Source: Microlunatus antarcticus (GTDB lineage: Bacteria; Actinomycetota; Actinomycetes; Propionibacteriales; Propionibacteriaceae). Taken from it: a DNA stretch of 64,000 nucleotides. The position numbers and the translations under genes were made by a program. Below are positions 10,267 to 17,939 of the stretch, piece by piece. Where the stretch lies: contig NZ_JACHZG010000001.1 of the NCBI RefSeq assembly GCF_014193425.1, positions 2,232,001 to 2,296,000 on the forward strand, given 5' to 3'. The notes under the pieces were generated by a model that saw only the letters and a program-made list of their open reading frames with translations, did no database searches and was not told where the DNA came from. Each line of letters opens with the position of its first letter. The first letter of the stretch is position 1.

Positions 10267-10278
10267 GCGCAACGCCCC

Positions 10279-14365: not shown

Positions 14366-15051
14366 GCGCGTCGGAGGCGGTGGTCCGCTGCGAGCAGGTC
14401 GGTCACGTCTACCGCGACGACAGCGGGACGGAGGTGACCGCGCTCGCCGGCGTCGACCTCGAGGTGCGTCCCGGCGAGGCCGTCGCGCTCGTCGGGCCGT
14501 CCGGGGCGGGGAAGTCGACCCTCCTCACGCTGCTCGCCGGCCTCGTCCGCCCGACGTCGGGCCGCGTCGTGGTCGCGGGCCAGGACCTCGGCGCCCTGTC
14601 CGAGCGCGGGCTGCTGCGCGTCCGGGCCACCTCGCTCGGCGTGGTCCTGCAGACCCCGGGCCGCAACCTGCTGCCGTACGCCACCGCGCAGGCCAACGTC
14701 GCCTTCGCGCAACGGTCCCAGCGCGGCACGGGACCGGGCGGCGCGACGGAGGTCGGCACCCTGCTCGAGTCCGTCGGCCTGGGCGCCGTCGCCCACCGGG
14801 CGGCACGGCACCTGTCCGGCGGGCAGCAGCAGCGGCTCGCCCTGGCCGTCGCGCTCGCCGGAAACCCGCCGCTGCTGCTCGCCGACGAACCCACCAGCCA
14901 GCTCGACCGCGCGACCGGCGAGATCGTGCTCGAGCTGATGCTGCAGGCACGCGACGAGCGCGGCACGGCCCTGGTCGTGGTCACGCACGACCACGAGGTC
15001 AGCCGCCGGCTCGACGTCGAGCACACGATCCTCGACGGGCGGCTGGCGTGA
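14362..15051 (+). CDS. ABC transporter ATP-binding protein (LolD/MacB type)
   Basis: An ATPase subunit of 229 residues for the adjacent FtsX permease. Walker A is GPSGAGKST (about 45-53), the Q-loop is VVLQTPGRNLLPY, the signature is LSGGQQQRLALA, Walker B is LLLADEPTSQLD and the switch His is in VVVTHDHE. All catalytic residues are present. The size and the RATSLGVVLQ region fit the LolD/MacB exporter branch. Start and stop overlap neighbours by four bases on both sides, implying coupled translation. Confidence 0.9.
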   Translation: MSASEAVVRCEQVGHVYRDDSGTEVTALAGVDLEVRPGEAVALVGPSGAGKSTLLTLLAGLVRPTSGRVVVAGQDLGALSERGLLRVRATSLGVVLQTPGRNLLPYATAQANVAFAQRSQRGTGPGGATEVGTLLESVGLGAVAHRAARHLSGGQQQRLALAVALAGNPPLLLADEPTSQLDRATGEIVLELMLQARDERGTALVVVTHDHEVSRRLDVEHTILDGRLA

Positions 15052-15704
15052 CCGGCGACGAGCGGGCCCCCGTCGCCCTGGTCGGGCAGGACCTCCGCGT
15101 CTCCCGCGGAGGCGTCGAGATCCTGCGCGGGGTGGACCTGACCGTCCACGGCGGAGAACGCCTGGCCCTCACCGGCCCGAGCGGCTCCGGCAAGACCGTG
15201 CTGCTGAGCGTCCTGTCCGGGCTGGTCCTCCCCCAGTCCGGGACCGTCCTGCTCGACGGACGCCCGCTCGCCCAGGAACCGTCCCTGCGCCGGCGCCTGG
15301 GCGTCGTGTTCCAGGGCTACGGCCTCGTCGCGCTGCTCACCGCCGCGGAGAACGTCGAGCTCCCTCTGCTCGCCGCCCGCGTCCCCGCCGCCCAGGCGCG
15401 CGTTCGGGCGTACGAGGCGCTCGAGTCGGTCGGGCTCGCCGACCGCGCCGAACACCTGGTCGAGGAGCTGTCCGGCGGCCAGCAGCAGCGCGCGGCCGTG
15501 GCCCGCGCCCTCGCCGTACGCCCGGACGTCCTGCTCGCCGACGAGCCCACGGCTGAGCAGGACGTCGGTCACCGGGCCTCCACCCTCGACGCGATCCTCG
15601 CGGCCGCCAACGCCGGTACGGCGGTCCTGCTCGCCACGCACGACCCGGTCGTCGCCGCCCGCTGCGACCGCGTCGTCCACCTCGACGCGGGCGTGCTGCG
15701 CTGA
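15048..15704 (+). CDS. ABC transporter ATP-binding protein (LolD/MacB type)
   Basis: A second ATPase of 218 residues in the same operon. Walker A is GPSGSGKTV (about 43-51) with Thr in place of the usual Ser, which still coordinates magnesium. Signature ELSGGQQQRAAVARAL, Walker B VLLADEPTAEQD and switch His ATHDPVVA are intact. The D-loop reads AEQD rather than the common SxLD. Two different ATPases with one large double-FtsX permease suggest a heterodimeric motor. The operon ends here and is followed by the 51-bp-period repeat array at 15713-15947. Confidence 0.9.
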   Translation: MTGDERAPVALVGQDLRVSRGGVEILRGVDLTVHGGERLALTGPSGSGKTVLLSVLSGLVLPQSGTVLLDGRPLAQEPSLRRRLGVVFQGYGLVALLTAAENVELPLLAARVPAAQARVRAYEALESVGLADRAEHLVEELSGGQQQRAAVARALAVRPDVLLADEPTAEQDVGHRASTLDAILAAANAGTAVLLATHDPVVAARCDRVVHLDAGVLR

Positions 15705-15712
15705 CGGGGTTC

Positions 15713-15947
15713 CGCGTCTTCAGACCGGTGCGGGCAGACGTTCCGCCGCGGCGGAGCTTTCGCCGCGTCTTCAGACCGGTACGCGAAGACGGTCAGCCGT
15801 GACCGACCTAAGAACGCGTCTTCAGACCGGTGCGGGAAGACGGCGTCCCAGGTCACGGGTCCGACCGCGTCTTCAGACCACGGTCCGAAGACGCGACAGA
15901 GCTCGACCCGGAGAACTCACTTCTACCCGCCGCGGTCTGAAGACGCG
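15713..15947. repeat. Array of 28-bp palindromic repeats at 51-bp period
   Basis: Four direct copies of a 28-bp unit start at 15713, 15764, 15815 and 15866, each exactly 51 bp apart, with 23-bp unrelated segments between them. Each unit begins CGCGTCTTCAGACC and ends GAAGACG (first copy cAGACG), so each can fold on itself. The fourth copy is an almost perfect hairpin through 15895. A fifth copy lies inverted at about 15920-15947. The array fills the 256-bp gap between convergent genes (ABC ATPase and GH43). It may be a multiple terminator, a REP-type element or a protein-binding array. It is not a recognisable CRISPR: spacers are short, one unit is inverted and no cas genes are present. Confidence 0.8.
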
Positions 15948-15960
15948 GACCGACCGAGCC

Positions 15961-17019
15961 CTACCGACCCGGGTCCCCCGACGGCAGCGGAACGTCGCCG
16001 GCGCTGGGGGTACCGAGCTGCGGGGTGCCGTCGGCGGCGAAGGTGATCGGCTGCGCGTACACCTCGCGGTCGTCGCCGCAGCTGCCCTCGGGCGTGGTCA
16101 CCGCGTGGTAGACGAGCCACGTCTGCGTGCCGTCGGGCGAGGTGAAGAAGTTGTTGTGCCCGGTCCCATACAGCCCGCTACCCTCGGCGGGCGCGAACAC
16201 GGGCTCCGGGGACTTGGTCCATGACGCCGGGTCGAGCAGGTTCGCCGACGCGTCAGCGGTCAGCATGCCCAGCGCGTACTCCGGCGTCCAGCAGCCCGAG
16301 CCGGAGTAGGTCAGGAACACGCGCCGGTCACGGACCAATGCGGCCGGCCCCTCGTTGACCAGCACACCGACGTCGCCGGCGTGGGTCTCCCACGCAAGCT
16401 CGGGCCGGGAGATGCGGACGGCCTTCCCCGCGACCTTCGTCGGGCTGCTGAGCTGCGCGAGGTAGAGGTCCTGCTCCCCGTTCTTGTCACCGGGCCAGCC
16501 GGACCAGGCCACGTACGAGACGTCGCCGACGGCGAAGACGGTCGCGTCGATCGCCCAGCGGTCGCCAGGCAGCTGTAGCTGGCCCTCAAACGCGTACGGG
16601 CCGGTGATCGTGTCGGCGGAGAGGACGTACGTGCGGTGGTTCTCGTTGTCGCCGTCGTCCGCGGCGACATAGACGTACCAGCGCCCACCGATCTGGTGGA
16701 CCTCCGGCGCCCACCACTCGCAGCACGGCGAGCCGTCGGCGCCGCCGGTGAAGATCGTCTGCTCCGGTGCGGTGGACAGCGTCGCCAACGACGTCGCACG
16801 GCGCATCACCAGATCGTTGCCGGACGACAGGACCTGGTGGTACTGCCCGTCGGTGAAGACCACGAACGGGTCGGCACCCTGTCCGAGCACGGGGTTGTTC
16901 AGCATGGCGGCTCCTGCCGTCTCGGTGGGCGATGCGGCCGGCCCGGACGGTGCCCCGCCGGAGCAGGCCGCGACGAGCAGCAGGACGGCCACCAGCGCGG
17001 CCGGCCAGCCTCGCCGCAT
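15961..17019 (-). CDS. Secreted lipoprotein glycoside hydrolase family 43
   Basis: A lipoprotein of 352 residues: signal peptide WPAALVAVLLLVAAC with lipobox VAAC, then a five-bladed GH43 propeller. The catalytic base Asp is in GADPFVVF, the pKa-tuning Asp in RWAIDATVFA, and the acid Glu in VNEGPAALVR. It is most like exo-acting alpha-L-arabinofuranosidases that trim arabinan or arabino-oligosaccharides, with xylosidase as an alternative. It would act on the outer face of the membrane beside the binding protein of the same operon. The ATG overlaps the permease stop by one base (TGATG), so it is the fourth gene of the importer operon. The repeat array begins 14 bases after its stop. Confidence 0.85.
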   Translation of the reverse strand: MRRGWPAALVAVLLLVAACSGGAPSGPAASPTETAGAAMLNNPVLGQGADPFVVFTDGQYHQVLSSGNDLVMRRATSLATLSTAPEQTIFTGGADGSPCCEWWAPEVHQIGGRWYVYVAADDGDNENHRTYVLSADTITGPYAFEGQLQLPGDRWAIDATVFAVGDVSYVAWSGWPGDKNGEQDLYLAQLSSPTKVAGKAVRISRPELAWETHAGDVGVLVNEGPAALVRDRRVFLTYSGSGCWTPEYALGMLTADASANLLDPASWTKSPEPVFAPAEGSGLYGTGHNNFFTSPDGTQTWLVYHAVTTPEGSCGDDREVYAQPITFAADGTPQLGTPSAGDVPLPSGDPGR

Positions 17020-17939
17020 CACCCCTTGAGCCCGCTGCGCGCGACGCCCTCGACGATGTTCCGCTGCGCGAGGATGAAGAGCACGATCGCCGGGACGCTC
17101 GCGATCACCGCGCCGGCCATGACGACCGGGTAGTTGATCGTGAAGGCGCCCTGCAAGATCGACAGTCCGGCCGGCAGAGTCAGCGTGGACGGGCTGAAGA
17201 GCACGAACACCGGCCAGAGGAAGTCGTTGTAGTTGGTGAGGAACGACAGCACCAGCAGCGTCGAGATGCCCGGCTTGGACAGCGGCAGCACGACCCGGAT
17301 GAACGTCTGCCACCGGTTGGCGCCGTCGATCTCCGCGGCCTCCTCCAGCTCCATCGGCAGGCTCGAGAAGAACTGCCGCAGGAAGAAGACGCCGAACGCA
17401 CCGCCCGCGCTCGGCAGGATGACGGCCCAAAGGGTGTCGAGCCAGCCGAGCGAGTTGACGATCAGGTAGTTCGGGATCAGGAACACGAAGCCCGGGACGA
17501 AGAGCGTCGCGATGATCACCCCGAACACGACGCGCTTGCCCGGGAAGTCCAGCCGGGCCAGCGCGTACGCGGCGAGCGCGGCGGTCGCCGTGACGATCAC
17601 CGAGTTCGCCACCCCGGCGAGCAGGCTGTTGAGGAACCAGCGGATCACCGGCGTCTGGCTGCTCGTGTCGAGCAGCGGCCGGTAGCCGTCGGCCGTGGCC
17701 GGGCTCGGGAACAGCGACGGCGGGATCGACGTCGCTCCGTCCGGCGTCTTGAACGACGTCAGGAACATCCACAGCAGCGGTCCGACGAAGACCGCGGTCA
17801 GGACGACGAGCAGGACCGTGAACGCGACCCGGCTCAGCGGGGAGGAACGCGGGCCGTGGCCCCGGCGGGTCGGCTCGAGGGCGTCACCCGCTCCACGGAC
17901 GGTGGGCGCGGTGGTGCTGGAGGCGGTGGTGGCGCTCAC
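17019..17939 (-). CDS. Carbohydrate ABC transporter permease (MalG type)
   Basis: An inner-membrane permease of 306 residues with about six helices. The cytoplasmic EAA loop that contacts the ATPase is EAAEIDGANRWQTFIRVVLP (about 205-225). The family is CUT1, with the partner permease immediately upstream (GTGA overlap of four bases) and the lipoprotein GH43 downstream (one-base overlap). No ATPase gene is present in the locus, so a shared MsmK-like ATPase encoded elsewhere is probably used, as is common in Actinobacteria. Likely cargo is arabino-oligosaccharides, from the GH43 context. Confidence 0.9.
   Translation of the reverse strand: MSATTASSTTAPTVRGAGDALEPTRRGHGPRSSPLSRVAFTVLLVVLTAVFVGPLLWMFLTSFKTPDGATSIPPSLFPSPATADGYRPLLDTSSQTPVIRWFLNSLLAGVANSVIVTATAALAAYALARLDFPGKRVVFGVIIATLFVPGFVFLIPNYLIVNSLGWLDTLWAVILPSAGGAFGVFFLRQFFSSLPMELEEAAEIDGANRWQTFIRVVLPLSKPGISTLLVLSFLTNYNDFLWPVFVLFSPSTLTLPAGLSILQGAFTINYPVVMAGAVIASVPAIVLFILAQRNIVEGVARSGLKG

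Follow-up and report, generated by a model that had tools for sequence, protein, structure and literature searches.

The window analyzed here is a 64,000-nt stretch of Microlunatus antarcticus (C1:2232001-2296000 of a 4.37-Mb genome in 18 contigs that is 95.2% complete), and our subject is an array of short repeats that occupies the entire 256-base gap between the end of an ABC transporter ATPase gene at 15704 (15048..15704, + strand, stopping 8 bases short of the first unit) and the end of a convergent glycosyl hydrolase family 43 (GH43) gene at 15961 (15961..17022, - strand, with an approximate start). The array belongs to a family that is dispersed over the genome, grows in tandem, keeps both a short word and the distance between copies of that word, and is restricted to one lineage; together, the arrays point to repetitive DNA kept in register by an agent that either binds or copies it.

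The first-pass annotation described four direct units starting at 15713, 15764, 15815, and 15866, in steps of exactly 51 bp, and a fifth, inverted unit at 15920-15947, all of which we found again in the letters. On the + strand lie unit 1 (15713..15740; conserved 12-mer at 15715-15726; second half GCAGACG, forming 6/7 pairs), units 2 (15764..15791; 12-mer at 15766-15777) and 3 (15815..15842; 12-mer at 15817-15828), both with a complete GAAGACG, and unit 4 (15866..15893; 12-mer at 15868-15879), which has a further match to the 12-mer (11/12 bases) on its - strand at 15882-15893 and is consequently a near-perfect 26-bp palindrome. Unit 5 (15920..15947; 12-mer at 15934-15945) is on the - strand, with its center 52 bp from that of unit 4. 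Linkers 1 (15741..15763), 2 (15792..15814), and 3 (15843..15865) separate the direct units, and linker 4 (15894..15919) separates the convergent units 4 and 5. A search for CGTCTTC-N12-GAAGACG with up to two mismatches gave six matches in the window, five of them in the array, versus an expectation of 0.33 from shuffling.

Genome-wide, the exact 12-mer CGTCTTCAGACC occurs 33 times and the reversed control word not at all, and allowing one mismatch within the array loci yields a family of 36 units at ten places, in line with the earlier suggestion of a dispersed intergenic family resembling the repetitive extragenic palindromes (REPs). Two matches were excluded from this count, namely, a lone word within a gene (C1:2243231) and the - strand half-site of unit 4. 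The places hold six (L031), five (L032), four (L033), two (L034), five (the window), one (L036), three each (L037a, L037b, and L038), and four (L039) units. All ten are intergenic, with four in convergent, six in same-strand, and none in divergent gene gaps, so that placement solely between convergent operons, as first proposed, applies within the window but not genome-wide, nine further places carrying the unit. The unit is an asymmetric 20-bp word, approximately CGTCTTCAGACCGGTGCGGG, the first 12 bases of which are almost invariant (exact in 33/36 units, with one change in the remaining 3/36), with positions 13-20 favoring approximately GGTGCGGG. The second half GAAGACG (at least 6/7 pairs) is present in 9/36 units, all within L031 and the window, and the other 27/36 lack a palindrome. 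The inverted repeat that had been attributed to each unit is thus a property of the four direct window units (6 to 7 of 7 pairs) but neither of unit 5 (5/7) nor of the family, whose constant part is the asymmetric word CGTCTTCAGACC followed by approximately GGTGCGGG and not a 28-bp palindrome. A solitary unit elsewhere in the genome (C1:2522062) shares 27/30 bases with window unit 4.

The family is sharply bounded. A 30-position sequence model built from all 36 units gave 48 matches in the own genome at E<=10 and 37 at E<=0.025; the latter are all at known places, one for each of the 36 units and one for the other half of unit 4. Below these, the own genome gives nothing better than an E value of 0.039, no improvement on the single matches in relatives, the best of which have E values of 0.0037 (G024) and 0.0073 (G046). 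A halo of decayed single words was considered, and none was discerned at these sensitivities. At up to two mismatches, the word gives at least 419 matches in the own genome versus at least 186 for the reversed word; we ascribe this excess to composition because the family-free sister genomes G003 (80 versus 53 in 1.2 Mb) and G017 (25 versus 13 in 400 kb) and a 400-kb sample of the own genome taken away from the arrays (32 versus 19) show it as well. At one mismatch, the same kind of 400-kb sample has one word and one reversed word, and 1.2 Mb of G003 has five; on the + strand of the own genome, six or more solitary words with one mismatch are treated as chance. A scan of 84,980 genomes for one exact spaced pair returned none, and the 19-mer was present in eight stretches as single copies in unrelated taxa, which we likewise take as chance. 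A literature text search for the letters of the unit returned only papers on mouse ATM, taken as unrelated.

The spacing is as constant as the word. Measured between the centers of 26-bp units (12+2+12, with the center at 12.5), each of the 26 distances between neighbors, from nine arrays, falls within 50-52 bp (mean, 51.35; standard deviation, 0.55), and the 51-bp type of spacing seen in the window recurs in the eight other arrays of the genome. A single grid accommodates 19 direct, 6 convergent, and 1 divergent neighbor pairs, and in five arrays inverted units sit on it. Slippage is unlikely to be the sole cause of this regularity, because slippage copies direction, yet the inverted units share the grid. 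The linkers between the units are a different matter. Those of different arrays are nearly unrelated, with 10.2 to 10.3 matches per 26 positions versus 9.6 in shuffles (573 pairs on each side, a set that includes near-identical tandem copies) and a mean z of 0.37 over 84 pairs, 3 of which exceed 2.5. The original description of the linkers as unrelated does not hold for all of them: window linkers 1 and 2 are alike in tandem register (z 3.2), and there are tandem-related linkers inside L031, L032, and L038, on account of which we conclude that the arrays grow by duplicating one 51/52-bp step. Across all eight tandem pairs, the 12-mer differs at 4/96 positions and the rest at 37/251 (p 0.005). 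Two further origins were considered. Mirror duplication about the unit centers as the origin of inverted units was unconvincing (mean z of 0.87 and best of 2.7 over 17 adjacent linker pairs), and a shared origin of the six convergent linkers was inconsistent (28 between-array comparisons, 3 above a z of 2.5, best of 3.4).

On comparison with the sampled relatives, the family is lineage specific and apparently recent. By rpoB, the nearest sisters are G003 and G017 (96% over the first 252 amino acids). A sister-species comparison was possible for nine of the ten sites, at none of which does the sister have an array; the remaining site, L039, is not placeable in the G003 sequence examined. In G017, the window gene pair is conserved, and the 43 bases that separate the two genes are able to form a hairpin; the GH43 gene of G003 adjoins sequence other than the window array. 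No array was found in the rplL-rpoB gap of G003 and G017, at the two places near tuf in the sister species, or in the G003 counterparts of L033, L034, and L036, which were read directly; for L031 and L032, its absence from the G003 counterparts was judged from that of the word. The exact 12-mer is missing from the 1.6 Mb of G003 and G017 sequence examined closely and from both genomes as a whole. The 16-mer was found in 1 of 57 genomes, the own one, and in 0 of the 56 relatives, 19 congeners included. Likewise, a survey of 391 genomes of the order turned up directly repeated 12-mer pairs (15 of them) in the own genome alone, the 390 others including 18 congeners. As close relatives are without arrays altogether, they offer no array spacing to compare, and the refuting condition set in the first pass, a lack of the 51-bp spacing in such relatives, does not apply in the form given.

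On the basis of these observations, we tentatively favor, at somewhat under even confidence, a lineage-specific, low-copy REP/NIME-like repeat of a high-GC bacterium that lacks a RAYT and whose word and spacing would probably be held by a putative DNA-binding or mobilizing protein. The word would be read by a sequence-specific protein, which may be one of the host's DNA-binding proteins or the enzyme that spreads the repeat. Two-fold symmetric complexes of this protein, each placed on positions 13-14, would stack along one face of the DNA every five helical turns. Units could then be kept in either direction provided that they fall on the grid, because the protein would stack at every fifth turn. 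Conservation of the word is consistent with such a constraint: the three diverged tandem pairs show changes at 1/36 positions within the 12-mer, as opposed to 31/94 from base 21 through the rest of the period (Fisher p 1.7e-4).

Several points weigh against this reading. Its central step, a binding protein or mobilizing enzyme that acts on the word, is one that we infer; the phased protein-binding array proposed at the outset fits the 50-52-bp grid with a protein that is putative. A species-specific site would be unusual for a host nucleoid protein. The reference point at 12.5 was picked for minimal spread, that is, fitted to the data, and a single founding array could have passed on the 51-bp step. 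The class of diverged pairs (more than 15% change outside the word) rests on a cutoff of our own setting and contains the three pairs only, and the sameness of the word also could be explained by gene conversion or recent spread. As the units were gathered via the 12-mer, the collection is biased toward intact ones, and of the 20 grid slots closest to the arrays on their flanks, 2 hold decayed units (p 0.0004 and 0.0075); the 40 farther slots hold none below a p of 0.01. There is a small excess of similar linkers between arrays, 1.4 to 2.6% of pairs having at least 15 matches versus 0.6 to 0.7% of shuffles, as would fit a shared founding array. Finally, isolated 12-mers are found in 5 of 19 congeners (G002, G010, G012, G014, and G004, one or two each), seven in all versus one reversed word and all on the minus strand as numbered, which we have taken as chance.

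Many of the same data could be accounted for by ordinary selfish or neutral REP-like DNA, an explanation that is possible but on balance doubtful. On this view, intergenic sites were colonized from one initial array or unit with no protein reading the spacing, 51/52-bp slippage made the arrays grow, and the copies of the word stay alike through gene conversion or because they are recent. The exclusively intergenic placement without divergent gaps, the tandem duplication visible in L031, L032, and L038, the lineage specificity, and the small excess in linker similarity all fit, and the genus has another repeat in like slots, a CCCTTCGACAGG copy lying in the G003 gap equivalent to the L033 array site. 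However, slippage alone does not give the inverted units on the grid in five arrays, the linkers diverge while the 12-mer and the length stay, and the one-mismatch counts in 400 kb of the own genome outside the arrays show no excess of decayed words (one versus one reversed). If a protein is involved, spacing that persists despite nearly unrelated linkers and inverted units offers a concrete bait for it; if none is, a copying process alone can hold the spacing of such an array to about one base. Either way, the family is small, sharply defined, and apparently recent, with array-free sister sites for comparison.

The array was also proposed to form a series of hairpins or a structured small RNA. 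The window array does fold far beyond shuffles (z -6.7 on the + strand and -10.0 on the - strand), and it fills a convergent gap that in G017 has 43 hairpin-capable bases, as might be expected of a transcribed hairpin element acting as a bidirectional terminator or 3'-end protector for convergent operons. The strong fold is largely due to the units being inverted copies of each other. When linkers were shuffled with the units fixed, pairing beyond the units remained on the window - strand (z -3.3), in L034 (-2.5 and -2.1), and on the L039 - strand (-2.0), but the remaining arrays ranged from -1.8 to +1.6 (L037b, +1.5 and +1.6), giving no family-wide signal. Neither strand of L032, L037b, or L038, all of them direct-only arrays, folds beyond its shuffles, and L037a, also direct only, has a z of -2.4 on a single strand. 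Together with the 27/36 nonpalindromic units, these results set aside the hairpin series as a family feature. The nine array loci gave no Rfam gathering-score match and have no fold common to the members, which speaks against the structured small RNA; the region from 15400 to 16200 has no terminator-like site with a T run, and L034 has, by eye, separate terminator-like hairpins beside its array. We consider the transcribed hairpin element unlikely, and neither a family-wide hairpin RNA nor a terminator is supported. Hairpins of this kind, with an arm near CGCTGACTCCCG, were noticed by eye around L034 (L034:7060-7400) and near L036 (L036:6930-7000) and are possibly another small repeat family.

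The constancy of repeat and period alongside varied linkers also recalls a degenerate CRISPR-like array of 19-bp repeats and 32-bp spacers. This we regard as exceedingly improbable, since five arrays contain units in both directions, several have tandem-duplicate linkers, the window array has no phage match, and viral contigs contain no directly repeated unit pair; the array's exclusion from normal CRISPRs in the first pass is consistent with these tests of orientation, linkers, and phage and viral sequences, and a CRISPR array is not supported. The notion that the 23-bp segments might derive from phages or plasmids fared no better, as the window array had no match in phages and 8 plasmid records with a best E value of 0.8. 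Pooled linkers (21 of 26) retrieved six phage records, all with an E value of 0.9 and four via the same 22 bases. The 16-mer was seen in six viral contigs as single copies and the spaced pair in none. A Pfam scan of 15 neighboring genes revealed no cas family, no search aimed at cas genes having been made.

One pair of arrays raises the question of a dedicated enzyme. At L037, a gene with weak similarity to DUF559/MTES_1575 nuclease-like proteins (C2:3299-4507) is flanked by three + units and three - units, that is, by two inverted three-unit arrays, and the segment C2:3113-4555 (L037:3113-4555) has no counterpart in G017 and G003, which carry a different gene of 237 to 238 amino acids at that place. 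It might be supposed that the arrays are the ends of a mobile segment containing this gene and that the other arrays are its nonautonomous derivatives. However, the family match is weak (MTES_1575, 24.2 bits versus a cutoff of 38.2; DUF559, 20.5 versus 20.6, and 22.8 bits in a separate search), and the gene may have been gained independently, next to repeats of the ordinary sort. As the five other DUF559 matches that were checked lack flanking arrays, some of them having single inverted 12-mers of other sequence, the gene is a lead only, and we judge the mobile-segment explanation very unlikely. A seventh relative lies in L180. A broader version, to which we would give just a small chance, is a species-specific system with a 51-bp ruler, in which a recombinase-like or nuclease-like protein, possibly tied to the DUF559-like gene, would recognize the 12+2+12 sites and both spread and stack on them. 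That geometry resembles the crossover sites of serine invertases. If true, this would be a REP-like family with a mobilizer other than the Y1 transposase.

The absence of that transposase bears on the placement of the family among known repeats. RAYT (PF01797, Y1 transposase) was not detected in the own genome at its 95.2% completeness or in any of 20 genomes of the genus in a search whose positive control matched in Escherichia coli and four other genomes. The closest systems in arrangement are NIME/dRS3 arrays and CGTC-tagged REPs, with REPINs less so. In Neisseria, the NIME/dRS3 repeat ATTCCC(N8)GGGAAT has almost 700 copies with RS elements of 30 to 160 bp between them, and its arrays have been discussed as places of gene insertion and deletion (PMC3898611). 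The likeness lies in 20-bp repeats with short segments between them in intergenic arrays of at least 200 bp (PMC3898611), but the present family has 36 units of another sequence, linkers that are nearly unrelated between arrays, and a 51-bp grid. CGTC-tagged REPs have an unpaired CGTC followed by an 8-to-9-bp stem and a loop of 4 to 5 bases (Di Nocera 2013, PMC3733652). They share with our units the CGTC start, intergenic location, a preference for same-strand and convergent gaps, and the lack of a known dedicated transposase (PMC3733652), but here CGTC is within the stem where there is one, 27/36 units are stemless, and the layout of unpaired CGTC plus stem-loop is absent. The spread of such RAYT-less REP-like repeats is treated as an open question in that literature (PMC3733652). 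REPINs and the related REP and BIME elements resemble the family in their conserved short word, inverted pairs at a fixed distance, and some tandem clusters (Bertels and Rainey 2011, PMC3116915), yet they are associated with RAYTs, and no Y1 transposase gene was found in the genus, nor is the copy number of the present unit high. The inverted doublet that is basic to REPINs is not basic here: five places have inverted neighbors, and the other five (L032, L036, L037a, L037b, and L038) have none within the array. Of the features of REP/RAYT systems, extragenic location holds at 10/10 places, the imperfect palindrome of 20 to 40 bp per unit is confined to 9/36 units in two arrays, and the 36 units fall short of a copy number that is usually over 100 (PMC2817692). 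Hence, this is a REP-like dispersed intergenic repeat that fails the defining tests for membership in NIME/dRS3, CGTC-tagged REPs, and REPINs.

The genes beside the arrays include rplL-rpoB, tuf, rbfA, those for Pup ligase/FKBP, and that for fructose-bisphosphate aldolase; the names rpoB, rplL, and tuf were assigned from sequence and not from Pfam. Gene settings were derived from open reading frames called by codon usage, with the GH43 neighbor in the window established separately. The gene to the left of L031 is a weak call, and at L037b a called frame of 402 amino acids overlaps the array and was read as having an overlong start. The L032 array is in the stretch ahead of rbfA in the own genome. 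In G003, the stretch ahead of rbfA (L226:4228-5580) has about 1.35 kb of different content between aligned blocks. Between the rplL end and the point where the rpoB match begins lie 943 bases in G017 (L091) versus 436 in G003, the G017 gap including an insert of unrelated sequence in which there are inverted stretches.

A second repeat, CCCTTCGACAGGCTCAGGG, provides a contrast. Like the array family, it is short and dispersed, but it is common to three species (G000, G003, and G017), occurs both singly and in clusters, has many imperfect copies, and shows no grid, its neighbor distances (below 250) being irregular at 20 to 100 bp. At up to four mismatches, it has 34 matches versus 4 for the reversed sequence in 400 kb of G003, 20 versus 7 in 400 kb of G017, and 18 versus 5 in the G000 sample. 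A literature search for the CCCTTCGACAGG letters gave no match. A scan for regular direct arrays (three exact 11-mers at steps of 35 to 80 bp), which covered 1.2 Mb, 400 kb, and 464 kb of G003, G017, and G000, respectively, recovered the window array, two places with CCCTTCGACAGG clusters, and, at L155 and L219, tandem runs of a different type. Looser criteria, applied to the first 400 kb of each of these genomes, added further irregular clusters, of which ten stretches were read. In the window itself, CCCTTCGACAGGCTCAGGG copies are present on the + strand at 10276, 10296, and 28009, with 1, 3, and 3 mismatches, respectively.
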